The notes under the pieces: generated by a model
What the model was told of the DNA's origin: nothing
Database searches by the model: none
The model's input: the letters and a program-made list of their open reading frames with translations, nothing else
Part shown: positions 5,223-22,638 of the stretch, piece after piece
Layout: each line of letters starts with the position of its first letter
Numbering within the stretch: the first letter of the stretch is position 1
Program-made: the position numbers and the translations under genes
DNA from: a virus
Length of the DNA: 28,010 nt
Virus record (IMG/VR): IMGVR_UViG_3300031705_000035
Location: 1-28,010 of that record
Reading direction: 5' to 3' (one strand)

Positions 5223-6124
5223 CTTATAAACGAGTAATAATCTTTGCTAGGGGTTAATGTTAAACTGGCACGATCACGATCTTCCGCCGCAGCTCGTTCA
5301 AATTCTTCTTCATACACAGCCTTCAATAGTTGCACACGACTAGGGGCTTTCTTTAAACTTAGATAATAAGCTAGACCTGCGGCTAAACAAGGATAAAACC
5401 TAAAAGGCACATCCACTGTATTTTGTGGGTCATCTACATCATTTATTCTAACAAGCCTGTCAAACACAAGAGTGTAAGTTAGTGCATCAGGGGTTGACCA
5501 CAATTTCACAATAGGTGTGATTTGCCTATCTATATAAAACTGTGTAGGTCTTGCTGTTGTTGTTTTGCTGGGGATGTTAATATATGTGTCCCTACTAATA
5601 CGACCAATAGCTATGTCTGACTGATTACCTGACCCATCATTTTGTCTTATAACAGCAGACAAAACGTCTATGGTGCTTCGTACGTTAGAAAAGTCTACCG
5701 CAGAAGTCACCGTTGTAGAAGCACCACTTGTTTCACCTACAATAGTTTCACCCGCAACAAATGTCCCTGAAGGTATAGTTATAGCAAAAACAGTAGCAGA
5801 AGTAGCACTTGTTATTAAAGCAGTAGCACCACTTGTTACACCTGTAATATTTTCACCCTCAATAAAAGCGTTAACAGTCCCTACGACTATATTTAATATT
5901 CCGGCAGGATAATCAGCAACACCTGTAACTAACGGCAAAGATACCTGCTCAATAGTCCAACGATTTAACCCACGATTCGCCCAGTCTGCAAAAAGTAAAT
6001 TTAAAGAACGCTTTGCTGTTTTTAAATCGTAACCTGAGTTAACAATTAAACCACAACGCTCAAACGCTTCTTCTATATACTCTGCTACATCTGGTTCAAA
6101 ATCGACTGATCCTGAAACTGCCAT
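5219..6124 (-). CDS. Tail accessory / connector protein (P22 gp4-like N-terminus) with beta-repeat insert
   Basis: 301 aa. The N-terminal ~65 residues (VAEYIEEAFERCGL..., ...YDLKTAKRSLNLLFADWANRGLNRW) resemble the helical start of P22 gp4-like head-completion/tail accessory factors. At about residues 80-145 there are two GENITGVTSGAT / GETIVGETSGAS beta-repeats, related to those in the gene at 3200-4054. The C-terminal part has helices and DRLVRINDVDDPQNTVDVP. It probably forms a ring under the portal. The start overlaps the upstream stop by one base. Confidence in the exact class is moderate. Confidence 0.6.
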   Translation of the reverse strand: MAVSGSVDFEPDVAEYIEEAFERCGLIVNSGYDLKTAKRSLNLLFADWANRGLNRWTIEQVSLPLVTGVADYPAGILNIVVGTVNAFIEGENITGVTSGATALITSATSATVFAITIPSGTFVAGETIVGETSGASTTVTSAVDFSNVRSTIDVLSAVIRQNDGSGNQSDIAIGRISRDTYINIPSKTTTARPTQFYIDRQITPIVKLWSTPDALTYTLVFDRLVRINDVDDPQNTVDVPFRFYPCLAAGLAYYLSLKKAPSRVQLLKAVYEEEFERAAAEDRDRASLTLTPSKDYYSFIR

Positions 6125-6420
6125 TAGCTATAAGGTCCTTTTATCACTTTTCCACCGCTCTTCATGCCCTTGGGCTTCATAGCACCGCCCATTTTCATAC
6201 CCTTGGGCTTCATTGATGTAGCACCGCCCATTTTCATACCCTTGGGCTTCATTGTCTTGCCACCCATCTTCATACCCTTGGGCTTCATTGTCTTGCCACC
6301 CATCTTCATACCCTTGGGCTTCATAGCCTTGCCACCATTTTTCATGTAGCCCATTGAGTTGCGGACTTTTTTAGGCAGTTTAGCAAGACCTGGATTCTTT
6401 TTAGCATTAACTTTTTTCAT
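6124..6420 (-). CDS. Lys/Met/Gly-rich tandem repeat protein
   Basis: 98 aa when started at ATG 6420, which has GGAG six bases upstream; a start at 6450 would lack support and deepen the overlap with the upstream gene. A basic N-terminus (MKKVNAKKNPGLAKLPKKVRN) is followed by five copies of MKPKGMK(M/S)GG with 0-3 residue spacers, then the C-terminal tail KVIKGPYS. No acidic residue is seen. The tail is shared with the protein at 7103-7279. Such Lys/Gly peptides are common in the structural regions of marine phages; DNA condensation or virion-internal binding is possible but unproven. Confidence 0.8.
   Translation of the reverse strand: MKKVNAKKNPGLAKLPKKVRNSMGYMKNGGKAMKPKGMKMGGKTMKPKGMKMGGKTMKPKGMKMGGATSMKPKGMKMGGAMKPKGMKSGGKVIKGPYS
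6151..6324 (-). repeat. Coding tandem repeat, ~36-bp unit, five copies
   Basis: Five direct copies encoding MKPKGMK(M/S)GG plus a variable 0-3 residue spacer (unit lengths 12, 12, 13, 11, 10 codons). The core on the plus strand is CCCTTGGGCTTCAT. Units 1 and 2 are nearly identical at the DNA level, which suggests recent expansion by slippage or unequal recombination. Copy number is expected to vary between related phages. Confidence 0.9.
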
Positions 6421-7099
6421 CGTCATCTCCGTTTTTGTACAAGTTGTCAAAAATTCTATTCACATCTAGCGTATAGTCTAAATCAGATTTTGAATAGTGT
6501 ATATGTTGTGAAGGTCTAAAATCTGGTGCTCCTTCTCCTGTTGAAAACCACGCAGGGTGTGTAACTCTAACCCTGTTGTTAGGTAATGCTACGATGTTTC
6601 CCGTCCATTCCCCTGCATCTAATAACTGTAAAACGTGTGACTGTTTGTGCTGTGCGGGATCATCAGCTATTTCGCTTTCTGTATAATCTACAGTAAACAA
6701 ATACTTTGCTGGGAACATTTCCCCATTAATCTTTGCTAACCAAGGACAAGGTGTAGTTCTGTCCATTACATAAACTGAATGATTATGCGAAGAACAATCC
6801 CAAGGCTGTGCCTCATAAGTTTGCATAGGCTCTGGCCACTGTTCTAACGGGACATCTCCAACCAAACCCGTTATAGGCATTCTAGCCCACATCGCACCAC
6901 CGTGAACTGTATCCTCTTCTTCACCTTCTGCCTCACATCCCGTAAATATAACTTGGAAACTCAAGCTTCTATTTGGGACAGTCGTAACAGCAATAACCAT
7001 AGCGTGTAAAAACTCGCCGTGATACTTTTCGTGATTGTGGGTGTACTCTTTACGAACCCAACACTTAAAGTACGGGATATTGCTTTGTAAATAACTCAT
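6407..7099 (-). CDS. Conserved phage hypothetical, 230 aa
   Basis: 230 aa, soluble. The sequence is orderly and globular (FKCWVRKEYTHNHEKYHGE..., FQVIFTGCEAEGEE..., GGAMWARMPITGLVGD) with many aromatic residues and His, no membrane segment and no enzyme motif I can name. Proteins like this occur near tail genes in marine podovirus-like phages and may be virion or tail proteins. The 3' end overlaps the following start by 14 bases. The upstream gap to the next gene is only 3 bases, so it is translated as part of the operon. Confidence 0.7.
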   Translation of the reverse strand: MSYLQSNIPYFKCWVRKEYTHNHEKYHGEFLHAMVIAVTTVPNRSLSFQVIFTGCEAEGEEEDTVHGGAMWARMPITGLVGDVPLEQWPEPMQTYEAQPWDCSSHNHSVYVMDRTTPCPWLAKINGEMFPAKYLFTVDYTESEIADDPAQHKQSHVLQLLDAGEWTGNIVALPNNRVRVTHPAWFSTGEGAPDFRPSQHIHYSKSDLDYTLDVNRIFDNLYKNGDDDEKS

Positions 7100-15412: not shown

Positions 15413-17791
15413 TTACCCCCTCGTTTGATTTTGTTTCTGTATAGCAATACGGGCTCGCATTTGAGCTATGTCTTCTGTACTATCTATACGATCTTGTCCT
15501 AATTGGAAAGTTTGTTGAGCTCGTTGTTGGTCTAGCGCAAGTTTTTGTTGATCGCTCTGTTGATCCGCTTGCATCTCTTGTTCACGTAACTGCAACTCCT
15601 GTTCCTTAATGCGTACAAGTGGGTCATCTTCTTGTGCAGGAGGTTGGGCCTTTTGGTATTCAGCAATTAATTGCGCCTGTATTTGAGCAATCATCTTAGC
15701 GTGTTCCTCAGGCTGTTGCTGTTGTGCCTGTGGGTCCTGTGCCATTTGTTGATCGTGTGCAACTTGGGCTTTCATACCCAAATGTTCGTAAATATGCTTT
15801 TCAAGGGTCATTAAAAGTGGTGGCTGCATTTGTGCAATCTTACTATTCATATACGCAGCGTGTACAGCTATATGACTATCATGATCTTGCTCAGGGAAAG
15901 CTTGCATTTGCCCTTGTCCACCCGCTACCTTACTAGCCTCTTGGTTTTCTGTTGACGGATCTAAAGGCTGCGGCTCGGGCTCAGGGTTTAATATCTGTTC
16001 AATATTATTCACACCTAACGCTTCATAAACACGCTTATATGATTCATACAAATTGTGTAACTCAGGCGCTGCTTGGGCTAATTTCAACTGTTCTTGGGCT
16101 AAAACTACTCTTTGTGACATACTAAAGATGTTAGGGTCACTTACTGGCAGTATATCTACACGACCATCAAAATCTTGGGTTTTTATCTGCCCATCTACGC
16201 CTACTGCATAAGGGTAAGGTGCTGGATCTTCTGAAAATAACCGCCCAAGCATCCTTAACTCTAATTTCATAGACGAATGGAGTCGCTTATGAACGGCACT
16301 TACAATCCTATTGCCACGTTCCAACAAAGCAATCGTAGTACCAACAGGCATTTCTGTATTACCCTGCCCCATACCCATATCGGTTGTCCCTATAAACCGT
16401 TGGGCTGCTTCTACTACGAAACCCATCAACTGGAACAACGTCGCAGAAGGTTCTTTATAAGGTAACGGCATTAAAGAGGCTTTTAAATCACCTCCAGGAA
16501 CATCAACATCCCTAAACTCTCCAGGACTGAGCGGGTTTGCCTCATCTGCAATCCGTAAACCTCTAGCTTTAAATCCTGCTGGCATATTACTCAACGTACC
16601 CGCATCAATTAACTGTCGTAAGTTAGCTGTAGCTGTACGGGACAAGTTCCCAAGCAAGTGAATCAAGCCAAAACCATAAAAACCTAATCCTGGAGTAAAC
16701 TTATACTGCACAAAATGTGGGATTTTATTTTTTCTAGGGTCATCTGGCTTATAATTACGCCGAATAGACAACACTTCGCTTGTATCAAGGCAAACTGTTA
16801 CAATATAAGGGAGCTTTATACCTGTCTCTTCACCCTCTTCATCAACATCGGGGTAATCATCGAGATCCAAAAAGCAATGGCATTCATACAACGTAAACTG
16901 CTCATCCGTACCCGACGGCGATCTGCCCTCAATATCATCATAAGCATCAGTAATAGTGTCAGACCCATCAGTCTTTCCACCTTTTTTCTCCATATCGAGA
17001 TAAAAACCAGACACTTGTAACTTGCGTAACTCATTCTCAGACATCTTTATAGAATGTGTAACACGCTCAGCAGTTTTTAAATCAGTAGCAACATAAGGTA
17101 CAAGCACATCTTCCGCAGGGATAAACTTACTTACAGGGCGTCCCAAACCTTCATCACGGTAAACCTTTTTAAAAGCACTACCCGCCAAACCAAGATAATA
17201 TAACATCTGGTCAAACTCTGGTTCGTACTCTTCCATACCATACATAATTTGGTAATTCATATATTCTTGAACACGTTTCGCCTGTTGCTCAGTTTCAGGG
17301 CTGGGCAAACCAACAATATTAGCTCGCACAGGGCCAGAACTTGGTAACATCTCTTTATAAGCTTGGGCCTGAAACTGTGTAACAGCCTCATTCAACAACG
17401 GGTGGATTACTCCAGTAGCACCATCAAAAGGCTCGGAACGGGTTTCATACCGCATACCAAGCAAATCTAAACCCTTGACATAAGTATCTTCCCAATCATC
17501 ACGGCTATTGCGGTCCTCTTCTACAGACTCTAGCACATAACTCGCAACACCAGTTAACGAAGCATCGGAAACCATCGGGGCTAAATTATCGAAAAAGTTT
17601 TCTGGCTCTTCGCCAAGAGTTTCTTCATCCTCGCCAAAAGTTACTTCAGCCCCATCTTCATTCTCAACAATTTCTACATTTAAAAAATCATCTTCTTGTT
17701 GGGCAAGATTATCATCTTCTATACTTAAGAAATCATTCGGAGCCTGTACTAACGCTCTATCAATATTGCTCGGACGTGGGGGTAGTGCCAT
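15413..17791 (-). CDS. Portal protein
   Basis: 792 aa. After an acidic N-terminus (to ~residue 75) comes the portal core: SVEEDRNSRDDWEDTYVKGL, YETRSEPFDGATGVIHPLLN, EAVTQFQAQAYKEMLPSSGP, then HFVQYKFTPGLGFYGFGLIH and LSRTATANLRQLIDAGTLSN, a wing/stem pattern of podovirus-type portals, with a MGMGQGNTEMPVGTTIALLERGNR channel segment. The last ~150 residues are a Gln/Ala-rich coiled coil (QADQQSDQQKLALDQQRAQQ), the barrel-like extension. It forms the dodecameric ring docking the terminase. Its ATG overlaps the terminase stop by one base (TAATG). Confidence 0.9.
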   Translation of the reverse strand: MALPPRPSNIDRALVQAPNDFLSIEDDNLAQQEDDFLNVEIVENEDGAEVTFGEDEETLGEEPENFFDNLAPMVSDASLTGVASYVLESVEEDRNSRDDWEDTYVKGLDLLGMRYETRSEPFDGATGVIHPLLNEAVTQFQAQAYKEMLPSSGPVRANIVGLPSPETEQQAKRVQEYMNYQIMYGMEEYEPEFDQMLYYLGLAGSAFKKVYRDEGLGRPVSKFIPAEDVLVPYVATDLKTAERVTHSIKMSENELRKLQVSGFYLDMEKKGGKTDGSDTITDAYDDIEGRSPSGTDEQFTLYECHCFLDLDDYPDVDEEGEETGIKLPYIVTVCLDTSEVLSIRRNYKPDDPRKNKIPHFVQYKFTPGLGFYGFGLIHLLGNLSRTATANLRQLIDAGTLSNMPAGFKARGLRIADEANPLSPGEFRDVDVPGGDLKASLMPLPYKEPSATLFQLMGFVVEAAQRFIGTTDMGMGQGNTEMPVGTTIALLERGNRIVSAVHKRLHSSMKLELRMLGRLFSEDPAPYPYAVGVDGQIKTQDFDGRVDILPVSDPNIFSMSQRVVLAQEQLKLAQAAPELHNLYESYKRVYEALGVNNIEQILNPEPEPQPLDPSTENQEASKVAGGQGQMQAFPEQDHDSHIAVHAAYMNSKIAQMQPPLLMTLEKHIYEHLGMKAQVAHDQQMAQDPQAQQQQPEEHAKMIAQIQAQLIAEYQKAQPPAQEDDPLVRIKEQELQLREQEMQADQQSDQQKLALDQQRAQQTFQLGQDRIDSTEDIAQMRARIAIQKQNQTRG

Positions 17792-19257
17792 TAATAATAC
17801 TTCCTTATCCTAGGACCTGTATCCTCTTCCTCATAATCTTCGGGGTGTTGGATAAAGCCTCCTTCTCTGAATCTGCGTAAAGCCTGTGTTACAGTATCAA
17901 CATAATCATCATGCTCTCCAGCAGGGAAAGCAGCACACTCTTCAATAACTTCCTCGGCCCATCTAGTATCTGGAGCCCACACTAAACCACTTTCAAGCAA
18001 AGGCGCAACTGAATTCACTCGAGTAAATTTATCATTGCCTCTACTCGGGCTGTAATTCTGCACTGGTATACCCATAGCTCTCAACTCTTGGGTTAACGGC
18101 ATCCCCGAAGCTTTCGCCTCAATTAAAACACACTCAGGGTCCCAATACTTATACTCTTCTAACGCTCGCCTACGCAAATCAGGAAAATCCCATCTACCAC
18201 GGGAAGCATCAACAAGAATAATGTTCGGCGGTTCACCCTCCTTAGGATAAAAAACACCCCATGTAGTTATCGCGCTATAATCAGCAGACTCTTTTTTACT
18301 GAAAGCCGTATCATAACTCTGCATAATATACTCCAAAGGCGGCAACTCTTTTTTCTCCCAACGCTTCCACCACTCTCGCTTTAAAATAGCAGACTGTTCA
18401 CTCGTCGGGTTTTGCTGCCACTGAGCTTCCCACTTACCTACCGATAAACTTCCCTTGACAGAAAGTAAATCTTCCTTTTTCCAATACTCTCCCCACAACG
18501 GCTCATCAGTCTCAGGCATCAAAGCAGGGAATTCAACAACCTCCCACTTATCTGCCAAAACATCTCGCGCCTGTTGCTTCAACAACTTACCCGTTAAATC
18601 ATTTTCTGCCCATCGGGTCATAATAATCACAATAGACCCTCCAGGTTGTAAACGCTGTCTCGGGCCAGAAGTATACCACTCATAAGCATGCTCCATAGCC
18701 GTAGGGCTCAACGCATCCTGCTCACTATGGGGGTCGTCAATAATTAACAAATCCGCTCCACGTCCAGTAACCGCACCGCCAACTCCCGCAGCAAAATACT
18801 CACCACCCTTTGAAGTCTCCCAACGTCCCGCAGCCTGACTGTCCGCTCGCAACTCCACATCAAATATTTTTTTGTACTCAGGCGAATTCATCAAGTTACG
18901 GGTCTTACGTCCAAATCTAAACGCCAACTCCGCAGTGTGGGTAGTCTGCATAATCTTCAACGTAGGCTTACGTCCCATCAACCACGCAGGTAATAAATAA
19001 CTTCCGAATTCAGATTTCGTGTGCCGTGGTGGCATATTCACTATTAATCGCTTCAAATCACCACGGGCCAAACGGTTGAACTTCTCAGCCATAATCTTAT
19101 GGTGGCGTCCATTAATAAAATCTTCCCAAACAACTTTTGTAAATTCCATAAAATCTTCACGCGCTAACTCAGATTCACTGATTTCCTTAGCTCGGTCTAA
19201 TAAATTTGCGAATTTCTTTAAATGCTCTTCTGGGACATTTGTAAGGTCAAGGGTCAT
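17791..19257 (-). CDS. terL: Terminase large subunit
   Basis: 488 aa. ATPase domain: adenine-side helix HHKIMAEKFNRLARGDLKRL, Walker A-like MPPRHTKSEFGS near residue 75, and Walker B LLIIDDPHSE near residue 170, followed by the coupling segment IVIIMTRWAENDLTGK. RNase H-like nuclease domain: YDTAFSKKESADYSAITTWG (first Asp), CVLIEAKASG (second acidic residue) and HDDYVDTVTQALRRF (third). It packages DNA into the prohead through the portal ring. The start ATG at 19257 has no recognisable SD, unlike most genes here. The terminase small subunit is not adjacent but about 2.8 kb upstream. Confidence 0.95.
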   Translation of the reverse strand: MTLDLTNVPEEHLKKFANLLDRAKEISESELAREDFMEFTKVVWEDFINGRHHKIMAEKFNRLARGDLKRLIVNMPPRHTKSEFGSYLLPAWLMGRKPTLKIMQTTHTAELAFRFGRKTRNLMNSPEYKKIFDVELRADSQAAGRWETSKGGEYFAAGVGGAVTGRGADLLIIDDPHSEQDALSPTAMEHAYEWYTSGPRQRLQPGGSIVIIMTRWAENDLTGKLLKQQARDVLADKWEVVEFPALMPETDEPLWGEYWKKEDLLSVKGSLSVGKWEAQWQQNPTSEQSAILKREWWKRWEKKELPPLEYIMQSYDTAFSKKESADYSAITTWGVFYPKEGEPPNIILVDASRGRWDFPDLRRRALEEYKYWDPECVLIEAKASGMPLTQELRAMGIPVQNYSPSRGNDKFTRVNSVAPLLESGLVWAPDTRWAEEVIEECAAFPAGEHDDYVDTVTQALRRFREGGFIQHPEDYEEEDTGPRIRKYY

Positions 19258-19300
19258 ATATTATAAATACATCGAAAAATTTCAAAGGGCAATGAACCTA

Positions 19301-19323
19301 TAATCAATACACACTATAGGGGG
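19301..19323 (+). promoter_or_regulatory. T7/K11-type phage promoter-like sequence on the plus strand
   Basis: Contains ACACACTATAGGGGG. The segment CACTATAGGG equals the core of the T7 promoter, and CACACTATAGGG the core I remember for the K11 promoter. The -17 to -8 part fits less well, and no phage RNA polymerase gene is in this window. It points rightwards, antisense to every gene here, toward the G-rich tract and the GA-free block. Confidence 0.35.
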
Positions 19324-19440
19324 TACGTCATCTAGGCTTTCCGTTGAGCACAGTTCACTATCCACGCAAAATGTTTTTGGTACTCGAAGAAATATCCAGA
19401 ACTTGGTTATAGCTGACGCCACAACCAAAGGTCGTCCACA

Positions 19441-19466
19441 GGGGGGGTGGTAGGGGGTGGGGTGGG
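19441..19466 (+). other. G-quadruplex motif
   Basis: Plus strand: G7, TGGTA, G5, T, G4, T, G3. Four runs of at least three G with loops of 5, 1 and 1 satisfy the standard G4 pattern with very short loops, which favours stability. The minus-strand (mRNA-sense) copy is C-rich. It starts within five bases of the left edge of the GA-free block, 50 bp past the P2 stop. Confidence 0.85.
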
Positions 19467-19484
19467 CTATGGTAGCCAGTGGGT

Positions 19485-19509
19485 GGCTAGGGGTACCTTA
19501 CCCCTAGCC
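19485..19509. repeat. Perfect 11-bp inverted repeat downstream of P2
   Basis: GGCTAGGGGTA, three-base loop, TACCCCTAGCC. It lies 7 bases beyond the P2 stop codon. In minus-strand RNA it forms a GC-rich hairpin but has no U-tract after it, so it is not a classic intrinsic terminator. It could shield the 3' end of P2 mRNA or form a cruciform next to the G4 motif. Confidence 0.8.
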
Positions 19510-19516
19510 GTTGCCG

Positions 19517-19960
19517 TTAGGCTGTAGCCTTGGCTGTAGGCTGTGGCTGTACTACTAGCTGTACGTAGCCTGTACCCCAAACCGCACTGCTAGGGCTGTA
19601 CCCGCCATTTAGCATTGCCATTAGGCACACAGGGCTTTTAGTGCTGTGGCCTAGTGGCTTGGCGGCGTTAAGTATAGCGGCTAGGCTGTTGTTGCCGTTA
19701 ACACCATTAAGCAACCAATTTTGTATAGTTGCGCGTACACCCGTGCCCTTGCCAGTAAAACCAAATGGCACAGGCTGTGCCGCGTTTAGGTTTACATTTG
19801 CAAGTGGCTTAACTTGTACATTGTGCAAGCTACCTGCCGCGTGGGTGTTTACAAAAGCCCACAACTGCGCGTTGGTAATTGCTGTGCCAGTGTTTTGTAG
19901 TGTTACTACTTTTACTGGTGTTGTTGCCTTAGCAACCTTTGTGTTTTTAACTTGTGCCAT
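19517..19960 (-). CDS. P2: unknown-family protein encoded without GA or TC
   Basis: 147 aa from ATG 19960, preceded by AAGGGG seven bases upstream; an alternative GTG at 20023 has no SD. The core QLWAFVNTHAAGS..., PVPFGFTGKGTGVRATIQNW, LLNGVNGNNSLAAILNAAKP, LGHSTKSPVCLMAMLNGGYS, PSSAVWGTGYVQLVVQ aligns end to end with P1 (20380-20838). N- and C-terminal tails are Ala/Thr/Lys/Pro-rich. There is no Asp or Glu, one Arg, and all Ser codons are AGY, because 15 sense codons containing GA or TC are excluded. Where P1 has Asp or Glu, P2 often has Asn. Function unknown; the excess of Lys without acids would allow nucleic-acid binding. Confidence 0.85.
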   Translation of the reverse strand: MAQVKNTKVAKATTPVKVVTLQNTGTAITNAQLWAFVNTHAAGSLHNVQVKPLANVNLNAAQPVPFGFTGKGTGVRATIQNWLLNGVNGNNSLAAILNAAKPLGHSTKSPVCLMAMLNGGYSPSSAVWGTGYVQLVVQPQPTAKATA

Positions 19961-20039
19961 TTTATACCCCTTTACTGGTTTTTGGCTGTAGCCCTTATTG
20001 GCTACCCTTACTTTATTGCACACTTAAATAGGTATTACA

Positions 20040-20048
20040 ATAGTGAAC
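20040..20048 (-). promoter_or_regulatory. GTTCACTAT motif upstream of P2
   Basis: The minus-strand 9-mer GTTCACTAT lies 80 bp before the P2 ATG. An identical copy lies 59 bp before the P1 ATG (20897-20905). The only GA between 19437 and 20173 (at 20045) is inside this motif. It could include a -10 element (TATTGT here, TATACT at P1) or a phage-specific promoter core. Confidence 0.45.
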
Positions 20049-20063
20049 TTGTATTATTTATAA

Positions 20064-20120
20064 TTATTTTAACACGCCATAAATACCTACTATTATAAGT
20101 AGTATAATAATTACGTACAT
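20064..20120 (-). CDS. 18-residue hydrophobic micro-ORF
   Basis: ATG 20120 to TAA 20064 encodes MYVIIILLIIVGIYGVLK, one short hydrophobic segment with a Lys at the end. The upstream sequence GGAGCAGGAA gives a strong SD at six bases. It lies between the GTTCACTAT motif and the iteron block. A membrane-active micropeptide or a leader peptide controlling P2 are possibilities. At this length chance cannot be excluded, but the only two TC dinucleotides of the region sit in its SD. Confidence 0.45.
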   Translation of the reverse strand: MYVIIILLIIVGIYGVLK

Positions 20121-20219
20121 TTCCTGCTCCTGTGTTGTTGTTGTTTACTTACTTTATTGCAACGTTTGCCAGTGACCAAGTTTTATTTGGCTGACCTGAT
20201 TTTATAAGACGGAGAGAAA

Positions 20220-20314
20220 TTTGAGGATGATTGATAATGACCCGAGGATGATTGATAAAGATTGATTATTATATATACCTTTGTATATATACGTCCTCAA
20301 ATATCCTCAAGAAT
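20220..20314. promoter_or_regulatory. Iteron block around an AT-rich hairpin (possible origin or control region)
   Basis: Left half: TTTGAGGATGATTGAT (20220-20235) and CGAGGATGATTGAT (20243-20256). Centre: an AT-rich hairpin, TATATATAC-CTTT-GTATATATA (20270-20291). Right half: GTCCTCAA and ATCCTCAAGAAT (20303-20314), the inverse orientation. So four TTGAGGAT-like boxes flank an easily melted hairpin, like replication origins or multi-site operators. It contrasts with the adjoining GA-free block: about fifteen GA occur within 20206-20265. No initiator protein gene is identified here. Confidence 0.5.
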
Positions 20315-20351
20315 GGTCTCATAATCCTTCTTCCTCGGGAATGGGATGGGA

Positions 20352-20373
20352 AGAAAAGGGGACCGAAGTCCCC
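20352..20373 (-). terminator. Intrinsic terminator of P1 with UUCG tetraloop
   Basis: On the minus strand GGGGAC-TTCG-GTCCCC followed by TTTTCTT, 7 bases past the P1 stop codon. A six-pair GC stem, the very stable UUCG loop and the T-rich tail make a convincing rho-independent terminator, so P2 probably needs its own promoter. Confidence 0.85.
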
Positions 20374-20379
20374 TAATCT

Positions 20380-20939: not shown

Positions 20940-21068
20940 TATCTTTATTTATAGACTCCGAATCCTCAAGAATCATCGTCATCATCAATCATCGTCCGTG
21001 GATTTTCGTTCATCATCAATCATCCTCAAACTCTTTGTCATAATCATTCTTCCTCTATCATGGGACAA
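20940..21068. repeat. GATGATTGAT / TTGAGGAT repeat cluster upstream of P1
   Basis: On the minus strand this stretch holds GAGGATGATTGATGATGA (near 21012-21029), GATGATTGATGATGACGATGA (written in part; near 20972-20992) and ATTCTTGAGGAT (20962-20973). The 16-mer TTTGAGGATGATTGAT matches 20220-20235 exactly in inverted orientation, so P1 is bracketed by inverted iterons. The plus-strand TCATAATCMTTCTTCCTC also recurs directly at 20319-20336 and 21038-21055. Confidence 0.7.
21053..21068 (-). repeat. TTGTCCCAT motif, copy 1
   Basis: Minus strand TTGTCCCATGATAGAG, three bases past the nuclease stop codon. It matches 22654-22669 (TTGTCCCATCATAAAG), just before the terS SD, in 14 of 16 bases. Shared use as a promoter or operator element is possible. 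Confidence 0.5.
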
Positions 21069-21070
21069 AA

Positions 21071-21505
21071 TTAGAGATCCTTCTCCTTGTGATGGGTCTG
21101 ATTTGATGATAGAATATGATTGATGATACCCGTCCAATCGTACGGTGTCGGGCAACTCCAGTCAGGGGTCCATGATTCTCCGTTTCCCGCTATCTGCATC
21201 GCTCTTTGTCCACCATATATATTTAGGGTAGAGGACGAAGGATGATGAACCAAGTTATAAACCGAGCCGCCATTCATAGAATATCTTGTTTGCCACGCGA
21301 TTTGGTGAGGACGTAAGGTTATAGACTTTAGGGACTTTAACCTGTGGACCTTCAATTCTAACCAAAAAGGATGACCTTGGACGATGCCGTGTAAGTCCGG
21401 CACACCTGGACTTGCCCATGATTCTAGGCGTGTCCAAAACACACCTAGATCTTTGGTTCCGTCACGGAGTTTATACCATAACTGTGATTCGGGTTTTGTT
21501 CCCAT
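21071..21505 (-). CDS. PD-(D/E)XK nuclease-like protein (VRR-NUC type)
   Basis: 144 aa. The nuclease signature is GVPDLHGIVQGHPFWLELKV: catalytic Asp in GVPDL, then Glu-x-Lys in LELKV, preceded by ARLESW-like FWTRLESWASP and followed by LRPHQIAWQTR, a common C-terminal helix of VRR-NUC and related phage resolvase-like enzymes. The last ~50 residues (WTPDWSCPTPYDWTGIINHI) are a family-like tail. It may resolve recombination intermediates or trim DNA before packaging. It is coupled to the upstream gene by TAATG and is immediately upstream of the P1 control region. Confidence 0.8.
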   Translation of the reverse strand: MGTKPESQLWYKLRDGTKDLGVFWTRLESWASPGVPDLHGIVQGHPFWLELKVHRLKSLKSITLRPHQIAWQTRYSMNGGSVYNLVHHPSSSTLNIYGGQRAMQIAGNGESWTPDWSCPTPYDWTGIINHILSSNQTHHKEKDL

Positions 21506-22083: not shown

Positions 22084-22638
22084 TCAAGCAGTGTCTTTTG
22101 TTATCTTGTTTTGCACAGTTCCTTCGATAATCATATTGCCGTCGGCTACTGCTGCGAGTGCAGGGAACTCTTTTTGCAAACGCTGTATCTCTTTCATAAC
22201 TTGGTCTCTGTCCATTTGGTCAATGCGTCCATGAAGGATTTCTTTACGATCTATGTAGATCCCTGCCGCTTGTCCTCTAGACTTTTCGGCTGCGACGGCG
22301 GCGGCGAAGTTTCCTCCAGTCATGGCAGCGTCACGTATCTCAGCTAACTTTTTGACGTGTCCTTCAAAACTTACTTCGTATTTCTTAGACAGCTCGCCTT
22401 TTAGTTCGCCTATCCTTTGCACAACATGAGGATACCGTTGTCCGTTTAGTAATTGGGACGCAATGGCATGGGCAGATTTCACAGAATATCCTGCTCGCAC
22501 AGCGGCCTCAGTTTGGCTTATGTCCTCGCAAACGTAGATTCTACAAAACTCTTCTTGTTTCGGAGTGATTCCTTTTTCTACACGAGGATTAGCGACGACA
22601 TCGATAGTAGGTTTGTGAGTAGCTTTTGCCAGAGCCAT
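22084..22638 (-). CDS. terS: Terminase small subunit
   Basis: 184 aa. Residues ~20-75 form the DNA-binding helix-turn-helix: GITPKQEEFCRIYVCEDISQ, TEAAVRAGYSVKSAHAIASQ, LLNGQRYPHVVQRIGELKGE, the pattern of the Terminase_2 family. A central helical part (EGHVKKLAEIRDAAMTGGNF) forms the oligomer core, and the C-terminal region (MDRDQVMKEIQRLQKEFPAL) probably contacts the large subunit. It recognises the packaging site on the genome. SD AAGG lies before the ATG, with a TTGTCCCAT motif just upstream. Separation from terL by P1/P2 and the nuclease is unusual. Confidence 0.88.
   Translation of the reverse strand: MALAKATHKPTIDVVANPRVEKGITPKQEEFCRIYVCEDISQTEAAVRAGYSVKSAHAIASQLLNGQRYPHVVQRIGELKGELSKKYEVSFEGHVKKLAEIRDAAMTGGNFAAAVAAEKSRGQAAGIYIDRKEILHGRIDQMDRDQVMKEIQRLQKEFPALAAVADGNMIIEGTVQNKITKDTA

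Follow-up and report, generated by a model that had tools for sequence, protein, structure and literature searches.

The common view of DNA hypermodification in phages is that it protects them from restriction. In the phages M6, ViI, and phiW-14, which carry 5hmdU-derived bases, hypermodified T is found within TG or TC (PMC6449724), and SP8 DNA treated with a 5hmdU kinase gained resistance at TG and TC sites only (PMC7653180). T7 RNA polymerase is inhibited by bulky or charged modifications of U in its template strand and tolerates those in the non-template strand (PMC11550810). The marine phage family described here appears to resemble M6, ViI, and phiW-14 in a dinucleotide-level target that includes TC, and it differs in carrying a TC-free island: no dinucleotide-free island was found in M6, Sonora, PaMx11, or AIIMS-Plu-RaNi.

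Selection against a short DNA word is familiar from restriction-site avoidance in phages. In contrast, the avoidance at this locus concerns a dinucleotide in a single gene, is absolute in many lineages, proceeds in a strand order, and is accompanied by adjoining arrays that are enriched in the avoided word. With their repeated boxes in both orientations and an AT-rich palindrome, these arrays resemble iteron-type origins and multi-site operators, but here an array accompanies each small gene, several occur per genome, and the box sequence is exchangeable. In SPO1 and T5, early host-takeover modules are located near the genome ends, and the DNA of SPO1 is modified. The small genes at this locus may be analogous to those modules in forming separate transcription units and, with respect to SPO1, in belonging to a modified-DNA phage, although their early expression is only putative here. 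We know of no dinucleotide purge in the SPO1 and T5 modules and of no described element like a TC-free gene beside TC-dense arrays, and a limited literature search found none.

Results

The stretch of DNA that was analyzed, hereafter the window, comes from a marine phage and covers 28 kb. Its structural genes are encoded on the minus strand, and nearly all genes point the same way. Two small genes, P1 and P2, are located between the genes for the large (terL; 17791-19257, minus strand) and small (22084-22638) terminase subunits. P1 (19517-19960, minus strand) encodes a 147-aa protein that lacks Asp and Glu, and its coding sequence contains neither GA nor TC. Its paralog P2 (20380-20838, minus strand; about 50% identity) encodes 152 aa and has a normal GA/TC content. 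Neither protein matched PHROGs, Pfam, or PDB sequences, and a search for P2 homologs across 50,697 phage records returned no match. The core of P1/P2 is predicted by a confident model (mean pLDDT 86.6), for which a fold search against solved and predicted viral structures gave no significant match. Both flanking neighbors are fixed: terL lies downstream of P1, and a predicted nuclease gene (PHROG 2165/93, resolvase-like; 21071-21505, minus strand) lies upstream.

P2 ends in an intrinsic terminator (AGGGGACTTCGGTCCCCT plus a T-rich tail; 20357-20374, minus strand). The P1 leader contains a hydrophobic micro-ORF (MYVIIILLIIVGIYGVLK; 20064-20120, minus strand) with a ribosome-binding site, and similar micro-ORFs of 18-24 aa are found in relatives L012, L031, L037, L064, and L067. 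Directly past P1 lies a GC-rich hairpin (GGCTAGGGGTA/TACCCCTAGCC; 19485-19509, minus strand), and relatives also have a hairpin at this site. The gap between P1 and terL (19258-19440) is conserved noncoding DNA, a candidate packaging or promoter site, in which the motifs ATAACCAAGTTTTGG, TCTTCGAG, and AGGTTCATTG mark about 180 bp that are kept across P1 lineages; the motifs were not found upstream of terL in TerL relatives that lack P1.

Between positions 19435 and 20045, GA and TC are both missing, which leaves a 610-bp gap and a block free of these dinucleotides on both strands (19436-20044). The original prediction had described a region without GA here, and the feature is real and stronger than claimed. 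GA and TC total 3036 in 28 kb, and the next-longest gaps are 77 bp, adjacent to the block, and 59 bp. None of the other dinucleotides has a gap above 300 bp, the longest belonging to CG, the rarest of them, and TG is not avoided in the window. The block is followed by a sparse zone (20047-20173) that has two TC only and includes part of the P1 leader. The depletion extends over the putative P1 transcription unit, from the micro-ORF leader through the hairpin past P1, and the noncoding site between P1 and terL contains many GA and TC.

Upstream of P1 lies array B (20206-20345), which consists of GA-dense boxes, an AT-rich palindrome, and inverted TC boxes. Positions 20208-20265 contain 15 GA, which is the plus-strand maximum per 60 bp, reached only here (mean 2.4); the peak 60-bp stretch begins at 20205-20208, and the GA cluster itself starts at about 20193. 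Boxes of TTGAGGATGATTGAT and CCGAGGATGATTGAT occupy 20221-20257, the palindrome TTATATATACCTTTGTATATATAC forms the center (20269-20292), and the inverted boxes follow at 20293-20310, so that both the GA density and the arrangement of boxes in both orientations around an AT hairpin are as first described. The claim that the array directly abuts the GA-free block holds only loosely, because the array is close to the strict block and about 130 bp of sparse zone keeps the two apart. A second GA/TC-dense array, array A (20950-21130), is located upstream of P2, includes GATGATTGATGA boxes, is overlapped by the 3' end of the nuclease gene, and contains the TC maximum of 16 per 60 bp (at 20973).

We examined this contrast in about 130 distinct viral contigs from marine phage, which were obtained in searches with P2, P1, and TerL. 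The TerL-based search, which is blind to GA content, added P1 homologs of only 33-36% identity with insertions. The GA/TC content of P2 was near expectation, and P1 was depleted in every case, the mildest having 44 where 55 are expected and the strongest none. All lineages profiled share one order, namely a GA/TC-rich zone, P2, a second GA/TC-rich zone, depleted P1, and terL. The rich zones around P2 reach 150-200% of expected GA/TC, and the rich and poor zones rank among the extreme windows of near-complete genomes. In two complete relatives, the GA/TC gaps measure 719 and 829 bp, compared with 66 bp for the next-longest. Many of the divergent P1 homologs (33-36% protein identity) have exactly 0 GA and 0 TC, in runs of up to 862 bp, and Asp and Glu are entirely missing from those inspected. 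The conserved quantity is the dinucleotide and not the sequence. No TC-free island was found beside terL in the more distant phages Pag-Yong1 and CRP-902, and a comparison of gene presence and absence between strongly and weakly depleted genomes gave no clear candidate that sets the degree of depletion. One 60-kb relative contig (L058 / G005) carries P1 copies at both ends, with slightly different GA counts, which may reflect either an overlap in the assembly or a mixture of strains.

Several comparisons point to selection as the source of the depletion. Among relatives, dN/dS of P1 is 0.05-0.17, which indicates purifying selection, and synonymous turnover is faster in P1 than in P2 in most pairs. 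In strongly depleted lineages, codon resampling predicts 83 TC and 57 GA, compared with 0 and 10 observed, and all 10 leftover GA occupy the first position of Asp or Glu codons. In weakly depleted lineages, coding-strand GA is reduced at synonymous and cross-codon positions (11 vs 33 expected), and coding-strand TC is not missing (73 vs 56 expected). Since each coding-strand GA corresponds to a TC on the template, the template strand was purged first. Intermediates are represented by L026 and L056, which have no GA and retain TC at 0.87 and 0.67 of expected, respectively. On the P2 tree, P1 alleles of greater and lesser depletion are intermingled (L044 and L052 are adjacent, as are L026 and L030, and L025 lies near the window). 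Lost TC was replaced by TA (36), TT (35), GC (24), TG (18), AC (16), and CC (15), and TT in P1 is not enriched (115 observed vs 149 expected). This broad mix of replacements and the lack of TT enrichment argue for avoidance and against TC-to-TT deamination. The purge of P1 reflects selection, through synonymous recoding, rather than mutation.

A separate depletion concerns terL and the portal gene (15413-19257, minus strand), where coding-strand TC is reduced (z about -4 to -7), as is CT. It is not present in four related phages without PF18723, and because CT falls as well, we consider it less specific and outside the main model.

The arrays were also compared among relatives. Across six near-complete relatives, the 2.4 kb that precede the P1 3' end on its upstream side contain 34 of the 37 GANGANNGANGA boxes, which indicates that these boxes are conserved and specific to that place. 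The expectation that the iterons would be conserved is thus borne out within this group; divergent lineages have GA/TC-dense arrays that are composed of other words (GATTACGACGGAGAGA, GATCGTTATT repeats, TCAAGTCAAG, TCATCATCA), such that the motif changes from lineage to lineage and the density persists. RNAalifold returned no consensus for array B, since its palindromes vary in sequence and give poor alignments, and we therefore used a cross-lineage complementarity test in its place. In 15 lineages, the palindrome of array B differs in sequence and keeps its pairing, with complementarity of 0.95 within a lineage vs 0.34 across lineages and no cross-pairs at 0.85 or above.

Each genome has 2-4 arrays, one ahead of each small gene, and each is positioned after the terminator of the preceding gene and before the leader of the next. 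Some relatives have extra small genes between P2 and P1 (L007 1526-1882, L030 4303-4665, L043 6010-7026, L044 2745-2999, L055 10644-10982). Every one of them brings its own terminator-like hairpin and GA/TC-dense array, which suggests that the arrays are per-gene elements, as if cassettes swap through them.

The family genomes encode a thymidylate synthase, a PF18723 protein, and a glycosyltransferase near the genes for DNA polymerase A and an HD phosphohydrolase, where M6 has a homologous thymidylate synthase and PF18723 protein. In seven relatives, the thymidylate synthase matches the M6 enzyme with E of about 1e-75 to 1e-86. The PF18723 (HMUDK_hel) protein, whose domain is associated with thymidine hypermodification, is a homolog of M6 gp55, and the Pfam name may not describe its reaction. 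Each of the 11 family records that reach 50 kb has this domain; it was not found in four complete TerL-related phages that lack P1. The 28-kb window itself contains no PF18723 gene, such that the link to modification rests on the relatives. Weakly depleted lineages carry PF18723 as well, and thus how strongly P1 is depleted does not follow from having the pathway. A phmmer search of seven near-complete relatives and the window for a P-loop 5hmdU DNA kinase like M6 gp54 gave no hit at E<=1. A diverged kinase is possible, and we therefore do not file the family as M6-type, from which it differs in having a glycosyltransferase in the cluster instead of a detected kinase.

A GA-directed 7-deazaguanine modification by DpdA was considered and rejected, since TGT/DpdA (PF01702) is absent from 13 family records, including seven of at least 52 kb.

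Discussion

The explanation that best accommodates these observations is a two-part cis signal that would be built from a single DNA word, 5'-TC-3', which reads as GA on the opposite strand. A single word on two strands explains the absence of GA and the absence of TC at once. In the proposed model, TC would most likely be the word that the phage's own thymidine hypermodification acts on. The arrays ahead of P2 and P1, in which the TC/GA flanking a palindrome is as much as twice as dense as expected, would owe to this packing the heaviest modification in the genome and would serve as regulatory or boundary elements, one for each small transcription unit. The P1 unit, purged of TC from leader to terminator, on the template strand first and on both strands in many lineages, would remain free of modification, so that RNA polymerase could read it as soon as the fully modified genome has entered the cell. 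We hold the combined reading of TC as modification target, P1 as modification-free unit, and arrays as modification-dense regulatory or boundary elements at somewhat short of an even chance. That TC is the modified site and that modification hampers transcription here are points that we infer, and the strand order of TC loss in P1 matches the template-strand inhibition reported for T7 RNA polymerase (PMC11550810). Early expression of P1 is likewise presumed, as is the identity of the partner that would bind the arrays.

Among the readings that the original prediction had offered, a contrast between modified and unmodified DNA appears best supported, on several independent lines of sequence evidence: the contrast is kept across lineages and under selection, follows a strand order, and occurs together with genes for thymidine hypermodification. 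An operator-like regulatory role of the array is possible. Several observations run counter to the model, among them the M6-type kinase that was not found, the lack of an island in the four M6-type phages, PF18723 in weakly depleted lineages, and a window that has no PF18723 gene. Known phages with this pathway use TG besides TC, yet there is no avoidance of TG here; TC is tolerated in P2 and in all other genes, and the model leaves unexplained why only P1 is purged; and the separate depletion of coding-strand TC and CT in terL and the portal gene is also left unexplained.

The placement of the motif may amount to a positional code, in which a motif-free gene would be readable and motif-saturated palindromic arrays would provide modification-dependent control, a reading that is tentative and that we would sooner doubt than assert. 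The locus suggests that phages of this family may use the placement of their own DNA modification as a control signal. If so, the pattern of modifiable sites would itself carry regulatory information, as an epigenetic layer that is written by dinucleotide density. A zero-TC gene of up to about 860 bp would then be a genomic readout of the strand and the gene that need the unmodified state, and the target motif of an uncharacterized modification would have been predicted from sequence alone.

The strongest rival is a packaging zone, in which the TC-free block and the noncoding DNA before terL would form the site that terminase binds and cuts, with TC-free DNA required there because terminase would handle hypermodified DNA poorly, and with the arrays as sites for the small subunit; we consider it unlikely. 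The block is always directly upstream of terL, the noncoding DNA in between (19258-19440, as distinct from the array) has the position beside the terminase genes expected of a packaging site and is retained specifically in P1 lineages, coding-strand TC is avoided on the terL side, and packaging of SP-15 DNA apparently depends on its hypermodified base (PMC5977210). However, the depletion tracks the P1 transcription unit and the coding strand and not the conserved noncoding site, which contains many GA and TC. An array accompanies each small gene, and contig ends near terL are spread over about 200 bp with no fixed terminus. The extent of depletion, from leader to terminator with mRNA-sense GA lost first, would also suit protection at the RNA level, where P1 mRNA would be recoded to survive an endoribonuclease that cuts GA (and UC). 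This reading leaves the GA/TC density of the arrays unexplained and requires two different RNA motifs, each by coincidence the reverse complement of the other, where one DNA motif covers both, and we give it little credence.

The same low standing applies to two further readings. From the iterons and a melting element, the original prediction had suggested an origin or multi-site operator, and a replication origin has in its favor the repeated boxes in both orientations and the AT palindrome between them, whose palindromic form is conserved. It is disfavored by the presence of 2-4 arrays in each genome, with one for every gene cassette, and by box sequences that are not conserved in divergent lineages, and a dinucleotide-purged protein-coding gene is not a feature of origins. 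GC skew showed no strand-composition switch at the array, a weak test given that almost all genes point one way and that the skew mainly follows their direction. Under the self-protection reading, a TC-specific nuclease, whether from the phage or from host restriction, would act on unmodified DNA, and a P1 region that passes through an unmodified state would have to contain no target. The loss of one dinucleotide from both strands suits a DNA target, and a predicted nuclease gene is a fixed neighbor, but such an enzyme would also cut the TC-dense arrays 150 bp away, and strand-ordered loss is unexpected for a double-strand cutter. A mutational origin, in which a TC-specific cytosine deaminase acted on the region, has in our judgment almost no chance of being correct: deaminases commonly act in a TC context and the pattern is a local one, but TT in P1 falls below expectation, and the substitution spectrum, in which TT replaced just 35 of about 170 lost TC, contradicts it.

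Some minor features of the window were also recorded. Rfam searches gave sub-threshold matches only. Inverted repeats occur in the conserved noncoding DNA before terL (19258-19468), a candidate packaging site, and a G-run tract that is G4-like on the plus strand adjoins P1 (about 19441-19468). On the strand opposite to the genes, ACACACTATAGGGGG (19310-19330, plus strand) bears a likeness to the core of a T7-type promoter. Elsewhere in the window, positions 6124-6450 (minus strand) encode a small basic protein that is built from MKPKGMKMGGKT-like repeats.
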